Below, in pieces: positions 17,784-39,617 of a DNA stretch of 64,000 bases. Numbering within the stretch: position 1 is the stretch's first letter; the number at the start of each line of letters is the position of its first letter. The DNA is taken from contig QJYB01000068.1 of the NCBI GenBank assembly GCA_003247835.1, positions 1 to 64,000 of the forward strand, read 5' to 3'. This stretch comes from Gammaproteobacteria bacterium (GTDB lineage: Bacteria > Pseudomonadota > Gammaproteobacteria > Pseudomonadales > Azotimanducaceae). Both the position numbers and the translations under genes were made by a program. The notes beneath the pieces are model-generated. The model searched no databases and was not told the DNA's origin. It saw only the letters and a list, made by a program, of their open reading frames with translations.

Positions 17784-20099
17784 ATGACATCTGCACGCTA
17801 TCTGTTTGCGGTGACGGCGCTGCTCGCATCGTCCTGCTGGTTGGAAACGGCCGCTGCCGAGGAAGCGACGACGGCCCGGAAGTCGCCCACATCCACCATC
17901 GAGGAAATCACGGTTACCGCACGCCGTCTGGAGGAAGACATTCAGACCACGCCGGTCGCCGTGACGGCGGTCAGCCCGCTACAGATGGAGCGCATGCATC
18001 CGCACGATTTCGCCGACCTCAATCACATCGCGCCGAACTTCTCCATCCAGGGCAGCAGTTCCCTGTTCAGGCACTCGGCCATCGCCTTCGCCCGGGGGAT
18101 CGGCTACAACAACATCGACGGCACGCTCGATCCCAGGCTCGGCGTCTCCGTGGACGGCGTGTTCTACCTGCGCAATATCGGCGTGCTGCAGAACATGTTC
18201 GACCTGAGCGCCGTGGAGATCGTGCTCGGTCCCCAGGGTACGCTGTTCGGCAAGAACACGATCGCCGGGGTGATGAACATCACGACGCAGAAGCCCAAGC
18301 TCGATGAGTGGGAAGTCAAAGGCATGCTCCGCTACGGCAATCTTGGCCGGATCGACAGCGAGCTCGTCGCCAACCTGCCACTCGGCGAGCAGCTCGCCGC
18401 ACGCATCGCGTTTCACTCTCAGTTTGCGGATGGCCCTTACAACAACATCTATACCGATCCGGTGACGAACCGGCCAGTAGCTGGAGCTGATCCAGGCGGT
18501 GACGAAACCAAAACTGTTCGCGCTTCGCTCTACTGGGAGCCGAATGATCAGTTCGATCTCACACTGATCGGGACTATCCTTCGCAACGACAGTCCGTCGG
18601 TTGGCGGCACCAACGAAGCCCAGCCATTCTCTCTGGCCGCACTCTGGCTCGGGCACCCGGGATTTGGCTCTCCGGGCGGACCGGACAGTCGCTACACGCT
18701 GGACAGGTCCTGGCCGTCGGCCGATCCGTTCCACATGGACAGCATCACCGTGGACGCCAAGTATCACGGCAGCGGCTTTGACGTGATCTGGGTCAGCAAC
18801 TACATGCGGGACGACTCCCCCGAGAACTGGGACGACTTCACCTATGCCGGCCTCGTCAATAACTACGCCATCGTCGATCACGAGCAGTACAGCACCGAGC
18901 TGCGGATTCAGTCGGACGGCTATGATCGCCTGCAATGGGTGGTTGGTGCGTTCTACGACCACGGCTTCTACGACTACTGGCAGTCGTTCTACAACTACAT
19001 ACCCGTTCTCTTCGGTCTCTCGGCGGACCCGTCGATCACCAACCAGTGGATCTTTCAGAAGTCACACTCGCTGGCCGGTTTCGGACAGCTGGACTTTTCC
19101 CTCACCGAAAAGCTGCAGCTCAATGCCGGTATCCGCTTTCTGAAGGAAACCAAGAAATCGGAGAACTACACCGGCTTTACAGGGCCGACAACGCGGGATC
19201 TCTCTGACTGGCCGCCGGAAAACTACATCACGGCGAAAAAATCCTGGGACAAGACCACTTACCGTCTTGGGGTGAAGTACCAGTTCAACGATGACCTGAT
19301 GGCCTATGTCAGCTACTCGACGGGATTCCACAGCGGTGGCTTCAACTCGGCCGCCCAGGCTGGTGCAACGGTCGATCCTGGCGTCACCCAGGCGACCCTT
19401 GGCCCCTGGGAACCGGAAACCGCGGATTCCTGGGAGGCGGGGGTCAGGTCCCAGTGGCTCGACAGCCGGCTGCAGCTTAACCTCACTGGTTTCTGGACAG
19501 AGTACAAGGATCTGCAGTCGTTCAGTACCTACCTGGTCAATCCGGCAACCGGCCTGACGGCGGTGGGTCCGGACAACGGCGGCCAGGAGCGGGCACGCGG
19601 GGTCGAGCTGCAGGGCACGTGGGTGCCGGTCACCGGCCTGACCGTGATCGCGGCCATCGGCTATCTCGATGCGAAGTACACGAGCTTCGATACCATTCGC
19701 AACAATCAGCCGTACGATTGCGTCGAGGAAGGTTGCAAGCCGGTGCGCAGTCCCGACTCCACCGCCCGCGTCACCGGCACCTACGAGTTCGTCACTGACG
19801 TTGGCACGTTCGTTCCCACGATCACCTATTCCTGGTCCGATTCCTTCTACACGGACACCTTCAACAACCCCTACGGACGGGTCAACAGCTACGGAACCCT
19901 CGACGGCGCCATCGCCTACGAGGACCCCACCGGACGCTGGAGTCTGTCGTTGTGGGGAAGGAACATCACCAACAAACACTTCTTCACCGGTATCGTCGCC
20001 GACGCTTCCGGAAACTTCCCCGTGCCCGCGTACCAGACTCGCTACTACGCCGATCCGCGGACATACGGTCTCGAGCTGCGGGTCGCGCTCGGAGAATGA
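17784..20099 (+). CDS. TonB-dependent outer-membrane receptor
   Basis: The 771-residue receptor has a signal peptide (cleavage after about residue 28, TAAAEEA), a TonB-box-like IEEITVTARR near residue 40, a plug domain (PQGTLFGKNTIAGVMNITTQKP) and a 22-strand barrel with aromatic-rich strands. The usual terminal Phe is not present; the chain ends LELRVALGE. The ATG at 17784 follows TGGGGAGA. A double operator lies 30 bases upstream, so expression should follow the catabolic genes. It probably imports the cluster's large or hydrophobic substrate across the outer membrane, energised by TonB-ExbBD encoded elsewhere. Confidence 0.93.
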   Translation: MTSARYLFAVTALLASSCWLETAAAEEATTARKSPTSTIEEITVTARRLEEDIQTTPVAVTAVSPLQMERMHPHDFADLNHIAPNFSIQGSSSLFRHSAIAFARGIGYNNIDGTLDPRLGVSVDGVFYLRNIGVLQNMFDLSAVEIVLGPQGTLFGKNTIAGVMNITTQKPKLDEWEVKGMLRYGNLGRIDSELVANLPLGEQLAARIAFHSQFADGPYNNIYTDPVTNRPVAGADPGGDETKTVRASLYWEPNDQFDLTLIGTILRNDSPSVGGTNEAQPFSLAALWLGHPGFGSPGGPDSRYTLDRSWPSADPFHMDSITVDAKYHGSGFDVIWVSNYMRDDSPENWDDFTYAGLVNNYAIVDHEQYSTELRIQSDGYDRLQWVVGAFYDHGFYDYWQSFYNYIPVLFGLSADPSITNQWIFQKSHSLAGFGQLDFSLTEKLQLNAGIRFLKETKKSENYTGFTGPTTRDLSDWPPENYITAKKSWDKTTYRLGVKYQFNDDLMAYVSYSTGFHSGGFNSAAQAGATVDPGVTQATLGPWEPETADSWEAGVRSQWLDSRLQLNLTGFWTEYKDLQSFSTYLVNPATGLTAVGPDNGGQERARGVELQGTWVPVTGLTVIAAIGYLDAKYTSFDTIRNNQPYDCVEEGCKPVRSPDSTARVTGTYEFVTDVGTFVPTITYSWSDSFYTDTFNNPYGRVNSYGTLDGAIAYEDPTGRWSLSLWGRNITNKHFFTGIVADASGNFPVPAYQTRYYADPRTYGLELRVALGE

Positions 20100-27626: not shown

Positions 27627-27998
27627 ATGGCATTCAAAGGCGTGGATCACGTGGTCGTGCGCGTGGCGGATCTGGAGTCGGCGATCGAGGGTTACTCGAA
27701 GATCCTCGGCACGGCACCCGAGCGACGTCACTCCGCCGAGCTGAAAGCGGATCAGGCGTTCTACTACTTCGACAACGGCACGTTTCTCGAGCTCATCTCG
27801 CCGACGGAGGACGGATCGCCCATCGCCGGCTCGCTGAAAAAGCTGGGCGACGGCATTCACACAGTGGCCTTTGCAGTGGACGACGCGAAGCAGACCGTGG
27901 CCGATCTGGACGGTAAGGGTGTACGGACCATCGGTGGCGCCTTCGTCCATCCTGCTTCGGCGAACGGTGTGCTGGTGCAGCTGTCGGAGCGTCGTTGA
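27627..27998 (+). CDS. VOC family protein (methylmalonyl-CoA epimerase-like)
   Basis: The 123-residue single VOC module has FKGVDHVVVRVADLESAIEGYSKILG at the start, GTFLELISPTEDGSPI in the middle and GIHTVAFAVDD with its metal-type His. The combination of an early His, GTFLELISP and a HTVAF motif resembles methylmalonyl-CoA epimerase and related small glyoxalase-like proteins. GAGGGGAAGAGG precedes the ATG. Its TGA overlaps the TTG start of the giant VWA gene as TTGA, so the two are coupled, which is odd given their different cell locations. Confidence 0.8.
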   Translation: MAFKGVDHVVVRVADLESAIEGYSKILGTAPERRHSAELKADQAFYYFDNGTFLELISPTEDGSPIAGSLKKLGDGIHTVAFAVDDAKQTVADLDGKGVRTIGGAFVHPASANGVLVQLSERR

Positions 27999-30900
27999 CA
28001 GGTCCCCGGTCGGGCTTGTACTGCCTGACCGCCCTTCTCCTGCTCGCAGCGGGCGCGCAGGGGGAAGTCAACGTCTACGAGTCCGAACCCAACGACACAC
28101 CGGAGGCTGCGACGCCCATCGCCGGCGAGGTGGCACTCTACGGCTCGATGCTGCCAGGCGATCAGGACGGCTTCCGCTGGACGGTGTCCGACGACGACGC
28201 CGGCAAACGCTGGACGTTCACGCTGTACGGCGTGCCGGGCGCCACGACGATCGCGGACCTGGTCCGGATTCAGTATGCGGACGACGGCTCGGTGGCGGTG
28301 GCGGACCGGCTCATGCAGATGGGAACCCGGGACGGGTCCGTCCCGTCGGTTCACAGGGGCCAGCTGTTCGACCCCGGTGAATATCTGATCGGCATCGCCC
28401 GTGCGGGTGGACCCGAGACTCCAGGTGGCAGCCCGTTCAGCCCGCCGTCGCTGGCCGGCGCTCTCAGCGACAAAGCGTCGCCCGCAGATGCGTCTCCTAA
28501 AACTCCGAAGGGAGCGGTGTCCGCCGCAGACGAAACCCCAGGCGCCTGGCGTTTCGTCATCCGTCAGGATTCGGTCCTCCCCATCGCTCAGCAGCCGGTG
28601 CCGGGCGATACCCGGGAGACCGCGGTCCTGCTGCGACCGGGTACGGAGCGTGCCCGCTACGAGACCGAGCTAAGGGTCTGGTACGGCCTGACCTTCACCG
28701 AGGCGCATGCCGGTCAGCGCTGGGACGTGGACGTCCGCGTTCCCATCGGCCGCCCGCTCACTGCGCGTCTGGTCGACGCGGACGGTACCGAGCTCGGCAG
28801 TCGCACCCCTGACGATCACGGGCTGATCCGGTTCGCCGACCTGGCGCCCGGGGTCACGACCTGGTTCCTCGAGTTGACCACGCCGGAGTCGGGATTCGTG
28901 CAGGCGGTGTCCAGCACGGCGGTCGGGGTGCGTGTGCAGGGCGAGGAAGCAGAGCCGAACGACGACCGCAACCTGGCCAATCGCGTGGATCTGTCGACCC
29001 CGCTCACCGGGCGGATCAGATCGGGTGAGCCGGCGGACTCGTTCACCTTCCCGATCACGGAGTCGCTGGCAGATCAGCAGCTCGTCCTCACCATCGATGC
29101 CACACCACCGGCAACCCTGCGCGCCCTGCTGACGGACCCGGGAGGCGATCAGGCTCAGTACCGGAATTACCAGACACCCATGGTCTTTCCCGATCTGGCG
29201 CTCGCTGCCGGTGACTGGGGCCTGACCCTGTCCAATACCTCCGAAGACACTACCTACACCGTCACGCTGACGTCCCAGGGTCCTCTGCCGAGCGGCATGG
29301 AGGTCGAGCCGAACGACACCATCGACCGCGCCAGCGGCGTTCCGGCCAACCTGCGGATCAAGGGACGATTCAGCGACACGGAGAGCGACTTCTTTCAGCT
29401 GCAGGTGCCCGGAGAACCGCAGCTCTGGCGGTTCCAGGCGATGGGCGACGGGCTCTTCGAGTTGGCCTACTACGATGGCGGTCTCGAGCAGCGGGCCGTG
29501 CTTCGGGTGCAGGGCGAGCAGCGGCGGCTGCGTCTCGATGACGTGTTTCTGCTGCCCGGTCGCCACTTCCTGCGCGTTTCGGGCAGGGACGGCGGTACCT
29601 ATACCCTGCTCGCCCGGCCGGTCGGCCCACCGGATCCGAACGGTGAGCTCGAGCCGAACGACGAGTTCAACATGCAGCGGCTCGCCTTCGGTCAGCATCG
29701 CACCGGGCTGCTTGCCGAAGGCGCAGACATCGACAATTACCGGTTTTTTCTCGGCAACTGGGAGCACATCCGCCTGAGCGTGACGCCACCGCCTGACGGC
29801 ATCGTCGATCCCGATCTCTACTGGTACGGCGAGCTGCTCGGTGACGGTCAGCCGGTGAGTCCCGGGGAACCGATCTCGGTGGAGGGTCTGTTCCCGCCCG
29901 GCGACTACCGGGTCGCACTGTCGCCCCGTCAGGTGAGCGACGGCGAGTACGCGCTCAGCCTGGAGCGCCTGCCCCGTTTCACCTGCCCGGCGGACTGCGA
30001 GCCGAACGGCATGGGCAGAATCTGGCTGGCGGCTCCGCTGCCCGCGGATCTGGTCCTCGAAGGTCGAACGGGAGAATGGCGGGACACCGACGTCTACCAG
30101 CTGCCCGCCTTCGAGCAGCCGACGGAACTGCTGATACGCACGGCGCAACCGGTCGGCTCGCTGGCCATCGGCCTCCACGACCAGAACCAGGATCGGTTGA
30201 CCTTCGATGCCGATCTCGGCGGCTATCGGGCGACGGTGCCCGCGGGCGGACCCTACCGGCTAGAGGTCGACGCCGGTGGGCAACGCTACCGGCTCAGCCT
30301 CGACTTCCCCAACGGCGCGCTCACACCGGTGAGCGGATCGCCGGACGCCGAGCTCACCCTGTCGCTCACGAATGATTCGGTCTCGGCCTACCGGAGTGAC
30401 GGTCAGCAGGTTCATGGAACGCTCGAGATTGCCAACCGGGGCAGCGAACCGCTGCCGCTCGATCTCGAGTCCGCATCCAGTGATTACCGGTGGCACGCGA
30501 TGCTCGATGAGAACGCGGTAACGGTGCCGGCCGGCGGTCGGCTTTCGGTACCCATCACCGTCGAGGTGCCCGCTGACGCCTGGGCCGACCGACCGGTGCG
30601 GATCAGTGTGGGTGCCCGCGACGCATCCGGTCGGCAGACACAGACGTGGTCCGAGCTCGCGGTCAGTCGTGATCTCGCCAGCGTCGAGCCCCACCTCTAC
30701 TGGCCGATTCCGGACGCGCTGCGGGGCGGGTTCAATGCCGCCTGGCTGCCCTTCGGCGCGACGCTCGATGACGAGTCGATCCCCGGTATCGATATGCTGC
30801 GCGACGGCCTCAACTTTCCGGACATCAGCATGGCGTGCTGCGGCGCCTATGGCTGGACGGAGGCGGAGCAACCCGTCTTCACGCTGGATCTGCCGGGAGA

Positions 30901-33379
30901 CGAGCCGCTGCCGGTGGCCGGTATCGCCCTGGACCACTTCGGCACGTCGAGCCCCTACGACAACGTCCGCGAAGCAGCGCTGCTGCTTTCCCAGGACGGC
31001 GTCGAGTTCCGCGAGGTGCTGCGCTTCGAGACCGAGGCCATCGAAACGGAACAGCACTTCGCGCTCGAGACACCGGTGCCTGCCCGCTTTGCCCGCCTGG
31101 TGGTGCACAGCACCTTCGAGGATCCCCGCTACCAGCGGTTGTCCGCCGCCGAGTGGAAGGTGATTCTCGAGCCCGGCTTCGACCTGTCCCACGGCGAGGG
31201 CTTCAATCTGGCGTCGCCGGCGCTCGGCGGTCATCTGGTCTGGGACGCACCGGCGGAGGCACTGCACCCTGTCCACGTTCTCGAAGACCGGGACCAGGCC
31301 GAGGCGATCACCCTGCGCGACGAGACTGTGAAGGACTACGTGTTCGCCTTCCACCAGAACCGCGCCGCCCGGATCGCCCGCATCGACTGGCTCTATCCTG
31401 ACACGCTCGACGAGAGTTCGACGACTTTCCAGACCGTGAGCCTCTCGGTCAGTCTGAATTCACCCGCCGGCCCCTGGTTGCCGATCGGCAAGCTGGATCT
31501 GTCCGGTGCCGTGTCCGAAGCGTCGCTGACACTGCCCGATGCACCCTGGGCCCGGTTCGTGCGACTGTCCGCCGAGAAACCGCCCGAAGGCTACTCGGCG
31601 TACGCGCCCGGACTCATCCGGATCTGGGAGCGACCCGGTGGCGACGACTACACGTCCGTGCTCACCGAGTGGGGCAGCATCGGTCCGAAGGCGTTCTACG
31701 AGCTCGCGACCGGACTCCATCCGGAACCCGGCCTGGTGGCGGTCGGCAACGACAGCCGCGCGAGCGCTGCGGAGCTTCCCATCGGAGAGGCGGCCCGGGG
31801 TCAGGTATCTCTCGGCACGCAGACGCACTGGTACCGGCTGATCATGCCGGAAGGGACCAATACGCTGAACCTGACCCTGAACGGCGATCCCACGGTGCGC
31901 ACGGTGCTGTCCCTCGAGGACGAAGCCGGTACGCAGATCCGGCTGCGCCGGGTCGATCAGCAGGAGCGGCTCGACGAGCACCGCTTCGAGGCGGTCGTCG
32001 ACGCCGGCGCCACCGTGTGGCTGGCGGTCAGCGAGCCGCCGCGCAACGTGGTCTTCGCCTGGGACACGAGCGCCAGCGTCAATGCCTACATCCCGCTGAT
32101 CAGAAACTCGCTGGTGGCGTTCAGCGGCCAGGTCGTGCCCGGACAGGAGGCGGTGAACCTGATGCCGTTTTCCATGCAGCCGCTGCTCCGGGACTGGTAT
32201 GGCGAGCCGTACATGCTGCAGACCATCCTCAACGACCACCGGCGCGGCAGCACGTCGAGCTCCGCGGAGTGGACGCTGATGGCTGCCGCCGAGGCGCTCG
32301 GACCGAGAGCGGGTACCAAGGCCGTGGTCGTGATCACCGATGCCGAGACGCCGGAGGAACCGGGCCTGTGGGCGGCGCTGCTCGCGACGCAACCACGCGT
32401 GTTCGGCATCGGCGTCGCCGGCAGCAGACGTCTCGAGCAGAACCTGTTCCGCGACTGGGCCAGCGTCAACGGTGGTCAGTACACGCAGCTGCGTTATCAG
32501 GGCGAGATGGAGATCGCGTTCGACCGCGCGAGCACGCTCATGCATCGGCCGGCCGGCTACACGCTGCGCGCTGCAGCCGAGTTCCGCGAGGCGCCCGGTC
32601 CGGGACGCCTGCAGGTGCTGGCAGGATCCGACCGCGGTACCGCCCGCGGTCGCGCCGTCGAGCTGATCCTGGACGCTTCGGGGTCGATGCTGCAGCGCAT
32701 GGAAGGCGAACGCCGCATCAGCATCGCCAAGGACATGCTCACGGAAGCAGTGCGCGAGCACATTCCGGCGGGTACACCCGTTGCCCTGCGCGTGTTCGGT
32801 CACCGCAAACCCAATGCCTGTGAGAGCGACCTCGAGCTGCCGCTCGGGCCCCTCGACCCGGCGGCCGCCGCCGGTGTGATCGCCGGTGTCCAGGCCATGA
32901 ACCTGGCGAAGACGCCCATCGCCGACTCGCTGGCGGCCGTACCGGGTGACATCGGCGGTGCTCGGAACGTGACGGTGGTTCTGGTCACCGATGGCGAGGA
33001 AACCTGCGACGGCAATCCGGCGGCAGTGATCGGGCAGCTCAAGGGTCAGGGCATTGCGGTGAGTCTGAACATCGTCGGCTTCGCCATCGACGATGCGGAG
33101 CTCGCAGCGCAGTTTCGCGACTGGGCGGCGCTGGGTGGCGGCCGCTACTTCGCAGCCGACGATCCCCGGGGTCTGCAGGATGCGCTGGAAGGTGCGCTCG
33201 CGCTGACCTACACGGTGACCGATCCGGGCGGCAACACCGTGGCCGAGGGCGCGGTCGGCGCGGACCCGGTGACGCTCGACCCCGGGACCTACCGGGTGCG
33301 CGTGAACTCGGGATCGGGGAAGATCTTCGAGGCGGTGGTCGTGGAGGGAGGCCGCGACGTGACGTTGACTGTCGACTGA
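27995..33379 (+). CDS. Giant exported multidomain protein with PPC-like repeats, discoidin-like domains and two VWA domains
   Basis: The 1794-residue protein starts at TTG (27995), overlapping the VOC stop, and has a signal peptide cut after about residue 23 (AAGAQG). Five EPND/EPNG motifs (near residues 30, 319, 438, 552 and 669) open beta-sandwich units of the pre-peptidase C-terminal (PPC) kind. The middle (about 900-1230) holds two stretches resembling F5/8 discoidin-type ligand-binding domains, with RFARLVV and RFVRLS-type endings. Two von Willebrand A domains follow, with MIDAS motifs DTSAS (about 1357) and DASGS (about 1560); the second also has TDGEET. A short beta domain ends the chain. 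No protease or sortase motif is visible. An adhesion or scaffold role at the surface is inferred. Confidence 0.8.
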   Translation: MTGPRSGLYCLTALLLLAAGAQGEVNVYESEPNDTPEAATPIAGEVALYGSMLPGDQDGFRWTVSDDDAGKRWTFTLYGVPGATTIADLVRIQYADDGSVAVADRLMQMGTRDGSVPSVHRGQLFDPGEYLIGIARAGGPETPGGSPFSPPSLAGALSDKASPADASPKTPKGAVSAADETPGAWRFVIRQDSVLPIAQQPVPGDTRETAVLLRPGTERARYETELRVWYGLTFTEAHAGQRWDVDVRVPIGRPLTARLVDADGTELGSRTPDDHGLIRFADLAPGVTTWFLELTTPESGFVQAVSSTAVGVRVQGEEAEPNDDRNLANRVDLSTPLTGRIRSGEPADSFTFPITESLADQQLVLTIDATPPATLRALLTDPGGDQAQYRNYQTPMVFPDLALAAGDWGLTLSNTSEDTTYTVTLTSQGPLPSGMEVEPNDTIDRASGVPANLRIKGRFSDTESDFFQLQVPGEPQLWRFQAMGDGLFELAYYDGGLEQRAVLRVQGEQRRLRLDDVFLLPGRHFLRVSGRDGGTYTLLARPVGPPDPNGELEPNDEFNMQRLAFGQHRTGLLAEGADIDNYRFFLGNWEHIRLSVTPPPDGIVDPDLYWYGELLGDGQPVSPGEPISVEGLFPPGDYRVALSPRQVSDGEYALSLERLPRFTCPADCEPNGMGRIWLAAPLPADLVLEGRTGEWRDTDVYQLPAFEQPTELLIRTAQPVGSLAIGLHDQNQDRLTFDADLGGYRATVPAGGPYRLEVDAGGQRYRLSLDFPNGALTPVSGSPDAELTLSLTNDSVSAYRSDGQQVHGTLEIANRGSEPLPLDLESASSDYRWHAMLDENAVTVPAGGRLSVPITVEVPADAWADRPVRISVGARDASGRQTQTWSELAVSRDLASVEPHLYWPIPDALRGGFNAAWLPFGATLDDESIPGIDMLRDGLNFPDISMACCGAYGWTEAEQPVFTLDLPGDEPLPVAGIALDHFGTSSPYDNVREAALLLSQDGVEFREVLRFETEAIETEQHFALETPVPARFARLVVHSTFEDPRYQRLSAAEWKVILEPGFDLSHGEGFNLASPALGGHLVWDAPAEALHPVHVLEDRDQAEAITLRDETVKDYVFAFHQNRAARIARIDWLYPDTLDESSTTFQTVSLSVSLNSPAGPWLPIGKLDLSGAVSEASLTLPDAPWARFVRLSAEKPPEGYSAYAPGLIRIWERPGGDDYTSVLTEWGSIGPKAFYELATGLHPEPGLVAVGNDSRASAAELPIGEAARGQVSLGTQTHWYRLIMPEGTNTLNLTLNGDPTVRTVLSLEDEAGTQIRLRRVDQQERLDEHRFEAVVDAGATVWLAVSEPPRNVVFAWDTSASVNAYIPLIRNSLVAFSGQVVPGQEAVNLMPFSMQPLLRDWYGEPYMLQTILNDHRRGSTSSSAEWTLMAAAEALGPRAGTKAVVVITDAETPEEPGLWAALLATQPRVFGIGVAGSRRLEQNLFRDWASVNGGQYTQLRYQGEMEIAFDRASTLMHRPAGYTLRAAAEFREAPGPGRLQVLAGSDRGTARGRAVELILDASGSMLQRMEGERRISIAKDMLTEAVREHIPAGTPVALRVFGHRKPNACESDLELPLGPLDPAAAAGVIAGVQAMNLAKTPIADSLAAVPGDIGGARNVTVVLVTDGEETCDGNPAAVIGQLKGQGIAVSLNIVGFAIDDAELAAQFRDWAALGGGRYFAADDPRGLQDALEGALALTYTVTDPGGNTVAEGAVGADPVTLDPGTYRVRVNSGSGKIFEAVVVEGGRDVTLTVD

Positions 33380-34879: not shown

Positions 34880-35005
34880 TCCCCTCTCCCCTGACGATGC
34901 AGCCGATGCTACCGGACCCGGTGAGAAGGTGCGAACCGGCGGGGCTGGCGGGTGATCTCCCCGGATAGTAGTTTCACCTTTTCGGGCACAGAGGAAGGAG
35001 GACTC

Positions 35006-36205
35006 ATGGGTCTCAGAGGAGACGCTGCCATCGTCGGCATCGCCGAGTATCCGCACACACGGAAGTACGACGGCGAGAGGAAGTTCACGCTCAGCCAGTG
35101 GGCGGAGCTGACCCGGATGGCCCTCCACGATGCCGGCCTCGAGCCTGAGCAGATCGACGGGGTGTGCTGCTCGGACATCCGCGAAGCCGGTATGTTCACC
35201 CCCGCCACCATCGTCGAGTACCTGGGCAGGCCGGTGAATTTCGCCGAGCGTATCGATCTCGGCGGCGCCAACGCGGTGGGCATGGTCTGGCGTGCGGCCG
35301 CTGCCATCGAGCTCGGCATCTGCGACGTGGTGGTGTGCGCACTGCCATCACTGCCGACGCCACGGGATCCCAGCCCGCCACCACCCAGTCCCGAGATGTT
35401 CTTCGGCGCTTCCAGCGCCCGCTGGGGGTCACCGCAGGGAGAATTCGACATTCCCTATGGAAACCTCGCCCAGAACTGCGGCTACGCCATGATCGCCCAG
35501 CGGTACGGGGCACAGTACGGCTACGATGCCGAAGCCATGGCGAAGCTCGTAGTCGATCAGCGCACCAGCGGCGCCGCAAATCCGAACGCGGCCTTCTTCC
35601 GCAGTCCGGTGACCGTCGACGACGTACTCGGCAGCAAGGTCATCGCCGATCCGCTGCACATGCTGGAAATCGTCATGCCGGTGGCCGGCGGTGGCGCGGT
35701 GGTGCTGGCATCTCGCGAGATCGCCGAGCGCTGCAATCACCGACCGGTGCGGGTGACGGGATTCGGCGAACACCTGACGATCAAGACGCCGACCTATGCA
35801 GAAGACCTGTGCGTCACTCCCGTCGGTCCGGCGTCCAGGCAGGCCTTCGCCATGGCTGGTGTCGTGCCCGGCGAGGTGGATGCAGCCGAGATCTACGACT
35901 GCTACACCATCACCGTGCTGCTGACGCTGGAAGACGCGGGATTCTGCGCCAAGGGCGAAGGCATGCGCTTCATTCGCGAGCACGATCTGACCTTCGGCGG
36001 CGACTTCCCCCTGAATACGCACGGCGGTCAGCTGAGTATGGGTCAGGCGGGTGCTGCCGGTGGCATGACCCAGGTGGTGGAAGCGGCGAGGCAGCTGATG
36101 GGACGGGCAGATGTCCGCCAGATCGCCGGCTGCAACACGGTCTACGTTTCAGGTACCGGTGGCGTGATGAGTGAGCAGAGCGCGCTGATCCTGCAGGGAG
36201 GTTGA
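35006..36205 (+). CDS. Thiolase-fold protein, Ltp2-like retro-aldolase type
   Basis: The 399-residue thiolase-fold protein lacks the nucleophilic Cys: the usual C-x-S-G site reads ANAVGM (88-93). It keeps HGG (339-341), GCNTVYVSGTGG near the end and EIYDCYT (295-301). In the Ltp2 group this Tyr-containing motif replaces thiolytic chemistry with a retro-aldol cleavage of a steroid side-chain CoA ester. That group works only in complex with a DUF35 partner, and the next gene encodes one, overlapping by TGATG. AGGAAGGAGG precedes the ATG. The steroid or isoprenoid side-chain substrate is inferred; other Ltp-like thiolases occur in unrelated pathways. Confidence 0.85.
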   Translation: MGLRGDAAIVGIAEYPHTRKYDGERKFTLSQWAELTRMALHDAGLEPEQIDGVCCSDIREAGMFTPATIVEYLGRPVNFAERIDLGGANAVGMVWRAAAAIELGICDVVVCALPSLPTPRDPSPPPPSPEMFFGASSARWGSPQGEFDIPYGNLAQNCGYAMIAQRYGAQYGYDAEAMAKLVVDQRTSGAANPNAAFFRSPVTVDDVLGSKVIADPLHMLEIVMPVAGGGAVVLASREIAERCNHRPVRVTGFGEHLTIKTPTYAEDLCVTPVGPASRQAFAMAGVVPGEVDAAEIYDCYTITVLLTLEDAGFCAKGEGMRFIREHDLTFGGDFPLNTHGGQLSMGQAGAAGGMTQVVEAARQLMGRADVRQIAGCNTVYVSGTGGVMSEQSALILQGG

Positions 36206-36618
36206 TGATGGAAATGAAGTTCGAACGGCCCCTGCCGCAGGAAACACCCGTCACCCGGCCCTTCTGGCAGGGACTGCGGGATGGCTGCATCCGCCTTCAG
36301 CGCTGCGACGACTGCGGCCGCTGGGTGTTTTACCCGCGCAGCCACTGTCCTCATTGCCTCTCTGAGGCACTGTCCTGGCACACCGCCTCCGGCAGTGCAA
36401 CGCTGTACACCTACACCATCGCCCGGCAACCCACCGCGCCGCACTTTGCCGAGGAAGTGCCCCAGCGGATTGCGGTGGTGGAGCTCGAGGAGGGGGTGCG
36501 GCTCACGACCACGCTGGTCAACGTGGCGGATGGGGATATCCGCATCGGGATGGCCGTGAAACCGGTCTTCGACCGGTGCTCCGAGGACGTGACGCTGCTT
36601 CGCTTCGAGCCGGCCTGA
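36205..36618 (+). CDS. DUF35 OB-fold/zinc-ribbon partner of the thiolase-like protein
   Basis: The 137-residue protein has the DUF35 layout: an N-terminal helix (RPFWQGLRDGCIRLQ), a rubredoxin-like zinc ribbon with Cys34, Cys37, Cys48 and Cys51 (CDDCG to CPHC), and an OB fold (SGSATLYTYTIARQP, PQRIAVVELEEGVRL). DUF35 proteins form stable complexes with thiolase-fold aldolases and are needed for their activity. The ATG at 36205 shares its A with the thiolase stop. The convergent selenoprotein gene ends 12 bases after its stop. Confidence 0.9.
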   Translation: MMEMKFERPLPQETPVTRPFWQGLRDGCIRLQRCDDCGRWVFYPRSHCPHCLSEALSWHTASGSATLYTYTIARQPTAPHFAEEVPQRIAVVELEEGVRLTTTLVNVADGDIRIGMAVKPVFDRCSEDVTLLRFEPA

Positions 36619-36629
36619 CGCCGACGCGA

Positions 36630-37439
36630 CTACATGTTCGACCGTCCGGGGTTGAACTCGAACGGTTCCGGCCAGACATCCGGAAGGTCGACAAGCACGC
36701 CAGGCTCGGTGGCGTTTTCCGCCAGCGACAGCGCCGAACGCAGTACGTGCAGCTGCATGTCCCGATCGAAGGGCTTACCGAAAGCATTGCCCATGGGGAA
36801 GTTCACGAACAGGCTGCGCGGTGGCTTGACCTGAGCCGTGAGATCACGGCCTGTTGAGATGCACACCGTGGTGATACCCGCTGCTTCGACGACCCGGCAG
36901 ACCAGACCCACGGTCTGGTGGTCGAGGGGTCAGGCAGGGACCGCGATGAGCAGGTCCACCTCGTCTTTTTTCAGCTCCGCCACGTAGGCCGGGGCGGATT
37001 CCTCCAGCACCTTGGTGCGGTTGTAGATGCGACCCATGAAGCCGCTCCAGAACCGGGGCGCGAGGCTGCCGATCTCTCCGGCCTCGACGAGCTCACGAAG
37101 GCGGTCGATGGGAAACTGACAGTTGATGTCTCGGTCCGCATCACGATGGTCGTAGTAGCTGTCGTGAATCTGGAAATCTTTCGAGTCCGCGCCCTGCGGA
37201 ATCTCGTCGAGACGGTGGTCGTTCCTCGCCAAGGGATCGAACGCGGGCATGGCGCAGAGCGAGATGCCGCCCGAGGTGAGCATGGTCACCCGGCACTCGC
37301 TCACCGGTTTCGGGAGTGGCTGCCAGGGCGCGTCCTCGTAGACGCTCCACTGGTACGGCGGGTGGCCCATGGCACCGTAGTAAGCTGCAAGCCCCTCCAC
37401 ATAACGGATCGGTTCGGTCCGCACGGTCGCATCACTCAT
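36630..37439 (-). CDS. Predicted selenoprotein of the PrdB/GrdB (selenoprotein B) family, Sec170 encoded by in-frame TGA
   Basis: Two abutting open segments (37439-36933 and 36929-36630) are in the same frame, separated only by TGA at 36930-36932. Read through, they give one 269-residue protein. It includes PVSECRVTMLTSGGISL, FQIHDSYYDHRDADRDINCQFP, LAPRFWSGFMGRI and then VDLLIAVPA-Sec-PLDHQTVGLVCRVVEAAGI. The text on both sides of the TGA matches the glycine/sarcosine/betaine and D-proline reductase selenoprotein B family, which carries Sec or Cys at this VP-x-(U/C)-P position. A perfect hairpin follows the TGA. The ATG at 37439 has GAGGGAAG upstream and the gene ends with TAG. It is probably a cytoplasmic redox enzyme; its substrate is unknown and no Stickland partner genes lie nearby. 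Confidence 0.85.
36901..36919 (-). promoter_or_regulatory. Candidate bacterial SECIS hairpin
   Basis: On the minus strand ACCAGACC-GTG-GGTCTGGT forms an 8-base-pair perfect stem with a three-base loop whose first base is G. The loop begins 19 bases after the TGA codon. Bacterial SECIS elements lie inside the coding sequence just after UGA, with the loop about 16-37 bases away and a G at its start, so position and shape fit. The hairpin also codes for HQTVGLV, so some pairing could arise by chance. Confidence 0.7.
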
Positions 37440-37529
37440 CGTCTGCTTCCCTCTATGTCTCACTGAAGTATCGTCGTCCGCTGCACGGGATGGAAGCCCA
37501 TCACCGCACCAGGTGGTAAGAGCTTCCGC

Positions 37530-38324
37530 TCACTTCCGCCCGGTCACCAGGAACTGGGGCAGCAGCGCAAAGAAGGTCTTCTCCTCCACCGCCCGGTCCA
37601 CGTCAGCGAGGAAATCCGCAATCTCGGCGTCGTCGATCTTTCCCGAGGTTCTCGCGTAGGACGCCATGTTATAGATCACGCCCCGCAGACCGCCGGATGT
37701 GTCGGCGTTCGCTATGACCTGAACGCGGACGTCTTCAAAACCCGCGCTCCGGAACATGCCATAGAGCCGCCGGGCAATCAGCGGCGTGCGGAACGCGACG
37801 CTGGCGGCGGACATGAGTCGCGTGAAGCGCTCGCCCAGTGGTTCCAGCACGACCCCGCCCCAGTCGCTGTCACTGACGTGGACGATGCCGCCGGGTTTCA
37901 CGATCCGGTAGAACTCGCGGACGGTGGCTTCAGGATCCGGCACGTACTCGAGCACGTTCTTGCACACGACCCGGTCGACGTCGGCATCGTCCACGGGGAT
38001 GCGTTCGCCCTCCATCTGCCGTGCGTCCACCCGATCGCCCAGCCCCTGCTCGTCACAGAGTGCACGCGTCCGCGCGAGGAAATCCCGGTTGATGTCCACG
38101 GCCAGCACGCGGCCCGACGGACCGACCCTGCGCGCCAGCTCGACCGCGAGACCGCCCGGGCCGCAGCCGTAGTCGGCAACTACCTGACCGGTCCCAATGG
38201 CTGCTGGAGCAATCAGCGCTTCGTAGCCATCGCGCCACTGGAACATGGCTTCGTAGCGGGCCATGCGATCTTCCTCCACGTGGAGCCAGTGATCGCGGTA
38301 GTAAGTATCCAGTTCGTCCGGCAC
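37530..38324 (-). CDS. SAM-dependent methyltransferase (class I)
   Basis: The 264-residue protein has motif I VVADYGCGPGGLAVELA, an acidic end of beta 2 (VLAVDIN), motif II/III DADVDRVVCKNVLEYVPDP and the post-III VKPGG, so it belongs to the UbiE/Coq5-like Methyltransf_11 group. I chose GTG at 38324 because AGGAGG stands 5 bases before it; the longer frame to 38348 would place this site inside the gene. It lies immediately downstream of the patatin gene. The acceptor substrate is not evident. Confidence 0.87.
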   Translation of the reverse strand: MPDELDTYYRDHWLHVEEDRMARYEAMFQWRDGYEALIAPAAIGTGQVVADYGCGPGGLAVELARRVGPSGRVLAVDINRDFLARTRALCDEQGLGDRVDARQMEGERIPVDDADVDRVVCKNVLEYVPDPEATVREFYRIVKPGGIVHVSDSDWGGVVLEPLGERFTRLMSAASVAFRTPLIARRLYGMFRSAGFEDVRVQVIANADTSGGLRGVIYNMASYARTSGKIDDAEIADFLADVDRAVEEKTFFALLPQFLVTGRK

Positions 38325-38348
38325 GTCACCTCCTCTGCGGATTCGCAT

Positions 38349-39617
38349 TCAGTCGCATTCTGCTCCGCCCGACACAGGCAGCTCGCAATTGGGACTGGTG
38401 TTGCCCGGCTCGGGCAGGCCTTCGCACCACAACCCCCTGCCTCCGTCTGCTTCGGCCCATGTCGTGCCGAGCTGAAACAGTTCGCTCAGCCCCAGCCTTC
38501 TGTCCGTTCCGGTCTTCTCGAACGTCTCCGCCGGCAGCAGCCCGACACGATAGTCGATGCTCGCGACCTTCATTGTCCAGCCTCCCTGCTTCCGCGATAC
38601 GGCGAGTGCCTCGTCCACCTCCTCGGCAATGTCGCTGAGGTTGCTCCGCAGCAGGCTGGAAACCAGCAGATCGACCGATCGTCCCACCATGGATTCCATA
38701 CCGGGGTGAAGGCACTGACGGGGACTGACCAGCTGATTGTTGACGACGGCATAGACGGTCAGCTTTTTCGCGGCATCGGACTGCCGGGACTCGTTGACCG
38801 CCCGCGCAATGGCTTCGATCTGCTGCACGTAGATGGTGCGGGATACGCCACCATCCGCATGGTGATACGGGATGCTCCCCGCCTCCGGCATGCTGCCATC
38901 TGCAGCTACCGGAATGGTCTTGAACACCGCCGGCATCGCCGACGACGCCAGGATCAGATTGTGATAGTCACGGGTGAGATCCGCTGCCAGCACCTGGTCG
39001 CCTGCCAGCTGTGCGTCCAGGACCCTGGCCGCCCGCTCACCCAGGTTCCAGTGGCAGAACTGGCCCGTTTCCAGGTTGGTCGTGCCGATCCACAGCTGAC
39101 GCCCGCTGGCACGGTAGAGGCGGCCGGCTTCCGCGATCATCGAGGTGGGAAGCACCTCGCGGAGTGTTTTTCGCAGTGGCTCCAGCGTGTAGACGGAGTC
39201 GACGAAAGGAAAAAGCCAGCGTCTGGCCCGGACATCCCGGTTTCCCATCTCACCCCCGTAGGCCCGGGCCATCTGCCGGTAGGGATCCGTGACGTTGTCC
39301 CGGCCCAGATAGGCCCAGGTCGCCATTACGGCACCCGTGCTGATGCCTGTCACAAGATCGAATTCCGGACTGTCCCGCCAGCCTTCGAGCAGACCGGCAC
39401 CGAAGGCGCCACGGGAGCCGCCGCCGGAAAGCAGCAGAACGTTCACCTCCCGTCCCGACGTCCGGAACGCCCGGTTGCCGGCGGCGGGATCGTCCCCGCA
39501 GAATTCAGCCGCAAGGGAAACCTGCATGCCGGGCTCGGAGCTGTCGCAGACAGGGCACGGGTATGTCGTGCAGCCACTCATGATCAGGAGCACCAGGAGC
39601 AGGGTTCGGCGCGACAC
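38349..39617 (-). CDS. Patatin-like phospholipase lipoprotein
   Basis: The 422-residue product begins with a lipoprotein signal (LLLVLLIMSGC, Cys16). It has the patatin oxyanion loop GGGSRGAFGAG (65-75), the nucleophile elbow GISTG (Ser93) and the dyad Asp in HADGGVS. It is therefore a membrane-anchored Ser-Asp lipid acyl hydrolase. The start is GTG at 39617 with a weak ribosome site. The methyltransferase gene follows directly and the POT transporter stop is 19 bases upstream, so all three may be one minus-strand unit. No type V autotransporter barrel is attached. Confidence 0.9.
   Translation of the reverse strand: MSRRTLLLVLLIMSGCTTYPCPVCDSSEPGMQVSLAAEFCGDDPAAGNRAFRTSGREVNVLLLSGGGSRGAFGAGLLEGWRDSPEFDLVTGISTGAVMATWAYLGRDNVTDPYRQMARAYGGEMGNRDVRARRWLFPFVDSVYTLEPLRKTLREVLPTSMIAEAGRLYRASGRQLWIGTTNLETGQFCHWNLGERAARVLDAQLAGDQVLAADLTRDYHNLILASSAMPAVFKTIPVAADGSMPEAGSIPYHHADGGVSRTIYVQQIEAIARAVNESRQSDAAKKLTVYAVVNNQLVSPRQCLHPGMESMVGRSVDLLVSSLLRSNLSDIAEEVDEALAVSRKQGGWTMKVASIDYRVGLLPAETFEKTGTDRRLGLSELFQLGTTWAEADGGRGLWCEGLPEPGNTSPNCELPVSGGAECD

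Follow-up and report, generated by a model that had tools for sequence, protein, structure and literature searches.

A UPLD-type PrdB/GrdB-like gene with a predicted selenocysteine codon and a putative link to methylation genes

The window, a 64,000-nucleotide stretch of gammaproteobacterial DNA, contains on its minus strand a gene related to those for selenoprotein subunits of amino acid reductases. The features considered are as follows.

36630..37439, minus strand: UPLD-type PrdB/GrdB-like selenoprotein gene, predicted to encode 269 amino acids with Sec170
36930..36932, minus strand: in-frame TGA, with a predicted selenocysteine reading; the same codon is TGA in 57 subfamily members and Cys in 5
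36921..36932, minus strand: codons of the motif U-P-L-D, with Asp in 62/62 subfamily members at the place where UxxC has its partner Cys
36901..36919, minus strand: SECIS-like hairpin with an 8-bp stem and the loop GTG, with covariation across 88 sequences
37530..38348, minus strand: SAM-dependent methyltransferase gene MTg4, UbiE/ArsM-like, directly upstream of the selenoprotein gene on the same strand
34952-36205 and 36202-36618, opposite strand and convergent: an Ltp2-like thiolase gene and a ChsH2-type OB-fold gene

Directly upstream of MTg4 and on the same strand, 38349-39617 (minus strand) encodes a patatin-like phospholipase whose N-terminus is of the lipoprotein type. Farther away, the plus strand at 27995-33379 holds a 1,794-amino-acid open reading frame whose product is apparently secreted, with repeated domains and VWA-like stretches.

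The reading frame of the selenoprotein gene begins at an ATG at position 37439, preceded by GAGGG about 10 bases upstream, and ends at a TAG at 36632-36630; an alternative GTG start at 37463 would give a product of 277 amino acids with Sec178. Consistent with an earlier note made on this DNA, the TGA at 36932-36930 was the sole break in the frame, and a standard gene caller stops there and would split the gene, as that note had expected. In the read-through product the residue lies in the context VDLLIAVPA-U-PLDHQTVGLVCRVVEAAG. The note had also read the two flanks as one protein, and comparison with the TIGR04483 PrdB profile bore this out: the piece before the TGA matched profile positions 17-144 (E 1.6e-24), the piece after it matched the successive positions 152-231 (E 8.3e-10), and the joined product matched with an E value of 1.7e-40.

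Among 58 related genomes, 10 orthologues (59-79% identical) each carried a single in-frame TGA, as did most of the remoter family members among the matches listed. When 84,980 species genomes were scanned, 53 loci came up. Within the subfamily defined by the PLDHQ motif, the codon at position 170, where the earlier note had proposed to look for Cys or Sec, was TGA in 57 members and a Cys codon in 5, with no other state. The interchange of Sec and Cys at this one codon (n=62) extended over Pseudomonadota, Myxococcota, Actinomycetota, Acidobacteriota and Hydrogenedentota. The five Cys forms made up one derived group on the tree (support 90/81), and thus replacement by Cys within the subfamily was probably one event rather than five. 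Homologues with an ordinary stop followed by unrelated sequence, which the note had named as counterevidence, were not what the comparison gave, as the sequence downstream of the codon was conserved and Cys was its sole alternative state.

The hairpin lies just downstream of the TGA. Its stem, ACCAGACC/GGTCTGGT, is formed by pairing of positions 36919-36912 with 36908-36901 around the loop GTG, and 18 nucleotides separate the TGA from the loop. Folding of the single sequence gave a weak signal (z -1.6) and a minimum free energy that was not extreme, and 8% of synonymous recodings had a stem of at least 8 bp at the same site. In the window's sequence taken alone, the hairpin could therefore be partly a by-product of the encoded peptide, and the weakness of the single-sequence statistics leaves the comparative data alone as decisive for the SECIS reading. 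Across 88 Sec genes, 93.0% of cells were paired compared to 85.4% in shuffles, double-sided changes were found in 58 cells compared to 18.6 in shuffles, and the covariation score was 0.247 compared to 0.109 after shuffling, with 0/500 shuffles as high. The covariation signal was destroyed when the pairing partner was slid by 1 to 3 columns. Moreover, 57/57 Sec members of the UPLD subfamily retained the A-U pair 36914/36906, and it was disrupted in each of the 8 Cys forms, of which 5 belong to that subfamily and 3 to other branches. The perfect 8-bp hairpin with a G-first loop 18 bases from the TGA, as the earlier note had described it, was thus upheld both by the sequence and by covariation.

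Decoding of UGA as selenocysteine would depend on dedicated machinery, and the earlier note had proposed a search for selA, selB, selC and selD. The search succeeded for selD, which was found on contig C56 of the window's genome (362 bits, over the cut-off). This selD (L118:5824-6744) is itself TGA containing and would encode a Sec SelD with the motif CG-U-AAK. In the window's own assembly (88.8% complete, 129 contigs), neither selA nor selB had a match over the cut-off, and no tRNA-Sec gene (selC) was found, the candidates being Leu, Gly, Ser, Trp and Cys tRNAs; all own-genome matches to the selA, selB and tRNA-Sec models fell below the cut-off and were rejected. Full-length selB was present in 4/4 other genomes of the genus and in 36 of the 58 genomes overall. 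In one relative (G003), two genes are followed in order by selA, selB and tRNA-Sec (L115 8222-12029). In the window's genome this stretch found its counterpart on contig C85, with 75-84% DNA identity; the alignment ended at base 19522, where C85 itself ends, within the first of the two genes that precede selA. Because C85 runs out at the locus where G003 carries them, selA, selB and selC of the window's genome most likely lie in the assembly gap at the contig end.

Reading the TGA as a normal termination codon, as an error of sequencing or as the mark of a decayed pseudogene would fit the lack of selA, selB and selC in the assembly and the standard caller's end at this codon, but has a negligible chance of being correct: 57 sequences, spread over five phyla and many assemblies, carry TGA at the same codon with the 3′ sequence conserved, Cys is the only alternative there and the hairpin covaries. 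We conclude, from sequence comparison, that the locus almost certainly encodes one polypeptide made of two profile-consecutive halves, with UGA decoded as selenocysteine.

To which family the product belongs was considered from motifs, model scores and phylogeny. The earlier note had assigned it to the PrdB/GrdB family with Sec (or Cys) before Pro, and both the residue pattern and membership in the broad superfamily held; assignment to PrdB or GrdB proper did not, given the UPLD motif, a TIGR04483 PrdB score of 138.9 bits for the joined product, below the curated cut-off of 300, and the absence of partner genes. The joined product scored 24.3 bits against Pfam GRDB (PF07355), over the gathering score of 22. 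The UxxC motif was absent from the product, in which UPLD takes its place, and UxxCxxC was likewise absent. In a 130-member alignment, the residue at U+3 was Asp in 62/62 sequences inside the UPLD subfamily and Cys in 68/68 outside it, the latter comprising UPVC paralogues, the UPNC, UPIC and UPLC groups, clostridial PrdB (UGTC) and GrdB (UGTC). The UPLD sequences were monophyletic (support 100/100, branch length 1.18) and came from Pseudomonadota (alpha, gamma and a burkholderial Cys form), Myxococcota, Actinomycetota, Acidobacteriota and Hydrogenedentota, the names being those of metagenome-assembled genome titles, such that single bins may be misnamed. With high confidence, the UPLD sequences constitute a distinct, separate subfamily of the GrdB/PrdB superfamily.

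Other members of the superfamily occur in the same bacteria. Besides the UPLD gene, the window's genome carries a UPVC-type gene for a PrdB-like selenoprotein at C10:35196-35948 (L131), and up to six PrdB-like matches per genome were seen in this bacterial family. At five loci a UPVC paralogue lies 1-8 kb from the UPLD gene (L083:262-1062, L075:17409-18212, L079:15490-16293, L080:15979-16782 and L114:14741-15544). The UPNC, UPIC and UPLC Sec subfamilies (L149-L159) are PrdB-like and separate on the tree from both the UPVC and the UPLD branches.

Partner genes were sought with PF04723 and PF09338, models for further components of glycine and proline reductases; PF09338 is the family that covers PrdA, the pyruvoyl partner. 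Neither had a match in 37 of the 38 genomes searched, the window's (89% complete) included. The exception, G018, had a set of GrdA, GrdB and GrdE genes, and therefore the search works in this lineage. That set (C195:54990-58110; L160, L125 and L126) contains TGA codons, is glycine- or betaine-reductase-like and was the only such set in the family. As the earlier note had placed the gene away from any glycine or proline reductase operon, so neither model had a match anywhere in the window's assembly.

The strongest resemblance is to PrdB of clostridial D-proline reductase, with homology over residues 44-261 and Sec in the same column. PrdB carries UxxC according to reviews (PMC9312934, PMC13188914). 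A true PrdB would have UGTCHR, a PrdA partner and more than 300 bits, whereas the product here has UPLDHQ and 139 bits and no PrdA was found. The possibility that the gene nonetheless encodes the selenoprotein subunit of D-proline reductase, paired with PrdA, draws on TIGR04483 as the best family model and on about 35% identity to clostridial PrdB. We regard it as very improbable, as the score is far from the cut-off, UxxC is missing, no PF09338 (PrdA/GrdE) gene occurs in the genome or in 36/37 relatives searched, and prdB of Terrisporobacter sits with prdC and prdA, to which nothing at the window's locus is comparable. The GrdB, GrdF and GrdH subunits of glycine, sarcosine and betaine reductases (PF07355, TIGR01918) share the Sec column and the Pfam GRDB match; in contrast to them, the gene here lacks UxxCxxC, encodes 269 amino acids compared to 431-435 in the models and has no GrdE or GrdA in its genome. 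Because it lacks UxxC, scores under the cut-off and has no PrdA, GrdE or GrdA partner, the predicted product is a member of the GrdB/PrdB superfamily that is neither PrdB nor GrdB proper.

Two further groups resemble the UPLD proteins. According to the available text of two reports, the record of TGA-containing "PrdB" genes in marine bacteria goes back to 2005, with 42 from the Sargasso Sea and 235 from GOS (PMC1088965, PMC2398784). They are abundant, PrdB-like and found outside clostridia, and the UPVC paralogues described above fit them; that text describes them with UxxC and does not set a UxxD branch apart (PMC1088965, PMC2398784). Alphaproteobacterial proteins named "glycine/sarcosine/betaine reductase selenoprotein B family protein" in RefSeq (L129, L130) belong to the same superfamily and are of similar length with Cys at the Sec site, but they read CPVC or CPIC, keep the partner Cys and fall on another tree branch than UPLD. 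As far as the available text of the marine PrdB and selenoprotein literature goes, the UxxD branch, its breadth, the absence of PrdA and the link to methyltransferase and short-chain dehydrogenase/reductase (SDR) genes appear to be new.

An AlphaFold model of the 277-residue form had an alpha/beta fold (mean pLDDT 91, pTM 0.90) in which Sec178 lies between a strand (171-175) and a helix (179-194). In the model the Sec is thus predicted at a strand end and helix N-terminus, the typical position of a nucleophile. A sequence search of the PDB gave no meaningful solved relative and a PDB fold search of the model gave nothing below E 0.001. The best fold matches, LacI-type alpha/beta domains (VIA Z 8.2), were not interpretable and were set aside.

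The genes around the selenoprotein gene were compared across orthologous loci. MTg4 matched a Pfam methyltransferase family, with ArsM and UbiE as the nearest NCBIfam models and none over its cut-off; it is possibly cotranscribed with the selenoprotein gene. MTg4 (52-78% identical) was the direct upstream neighbor on the same strand in two further loci (L024, L025), lay two genes upstream in G004 and, at 53% identity, was directly upstream in a myxococcotal locus (L091). A second methyltransferase of the Methyltransf_2 type, MTg3, and an SDR adjoined the gene in several orders in G001, G003, G004, G012, G019 and L068-L070; the window's genome has both of these genes together on contig C42. The nearest solved relative of MTg3 was DsyB (E 2e-35). 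The MTHB-binding residues of DsyB/DSYB are Tyr97, Gln101, Tyr129, Tyr142, Gln146 and His291 (PMC10989797). Of these, 2/6 are kept in MTg3, and its identity as DsyB was rejected on that ground. The SDR was closest to a citronellol-catabolism dehydrogenase.

A first test of methyltransferase enrichment (p 3e-5) was set aside as seed biased, because its profile had been built from the adjacent genes. In a test that used loci outside those that built its profile, a methyltransferase lay within 1.5 kb of 7/10 orthologues in relatives, compared to 1/19 UPVC paralogues and 0/31 control loci taken from the window's genome and relatives, a comparison that ignores shared ancestry. MTg3 was present in 10/11 genomes with the selenoprotein gene compared to 3/47 without it (Fisher 5.7e-8), and inside the bacterial family only, the co-occurrence gave Fisher 8e-6; both values likewise ignore shared ancestry. 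Many UPLD orthologues, the nearest ones included, had no adjacent methyltransferase, and gene order varied. On balance, we favor a functional link of the selenoprotein with the methylation genes.

Two other gene associations were seen at orthologous or related loci. An operon with a luciferase-like monooxygenase or a TauD dioxygenase recurred in a limited set of loci, most of them alphaproteobacterial, and was rejected as a candidate. The gene for SelO, a protein adenylyltransferase, adjoins a PrdB-like gene in two Alphaproteobacteria (L072:10891-12402 and L129:4881-6353), one with Sec and one with Cys.

The earlier note had pointed to the Ltp2/DUF35 genes as a steroid-type context. They do adjoin the selenoprotein gene, and a role in degradation of steroid or other side chains together with the Ltp2-like thiolase and the ChsH2-type OB-fold protein would follow from that proximity. 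Both genes, however, are on the opposite strand and convergent, and neither formed a conserved neighbor cluster in about 50 orthologue loci; it is the SAM methyltransferases and the SDR that recur. We consider a steroid role highly improbable.

One way in which the protein could act is as follows. The SelB/tRNA-Sec system would decode the UGA, guided by the hairpin just downstream. The Sec selenolate would then attack an electrophilic small molecule, a product or substrate of the linked SAM methyltransferase and SDR, to give a selenium-substrate adduct. Asp at U+3 would stand in for the partner Cys, perhaps in acid/base catalysis. As there is no internal partner Cys, the adduct or selenenyl form would need to be resolved by an outside thiol, and a pyruvoyl partner (PrdA/GrdE) would take no part. 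In its details this selenolate/Asp chemistry is speculative.

In the main alternative, the protein would serve in thiol/selenol redox or repair reactions of a general kind, for example against peroxides or electrophiles, and the methyltransferase link would be incidental. A redox function is presumed for most uncharacterized prokaryotic selenoproteins (PMC9312934), many loci had no conserved partner gene, and SelO is encoded beside the selenoprotein gene in L072. An invariant Asp in place of the partner Cys counts against a classic dithiol cycle, however, as does the co-occurrence with one methyltransferase (10/11 versus 3/47) against an incidental link, and we find the redox alternative possible though rather doubtful. 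Taken as a whole, the data make the following explanation likely: the UPLD gene encodes a genuine selenoprotein, decoded by SelB and tRNA-Sec, which probably works on its own as a selenolate enzyme in metabolism linked to methylation.

In the sea, PrdB-like proteins belong to the most common selenoproteins, although their name comes from a clostridial amino acid reductase. The present analysis splits off a branch unable to use the known UxxC/PrdA chemistry, the genes of which are cut at the TGA by standard annotation, and gives that branch a testable partner set of two methyltransferases and an SDR. Our tentative proposal is that the UPLD proteins may be stand-alone selenoenzymes of largely uncultured bacteria from at least five phyla, in which an invariant Asp stands where a resolving Cys would be, a pyruvoyl partner is lacking and the substrate would be a methylated (O-, N- or S-methyl) metabolite, a chemistry undescribed for GrdB/PrdB relatives. 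The UPLD branch is an entry point to the role of selenium in these uncultured bacteria.
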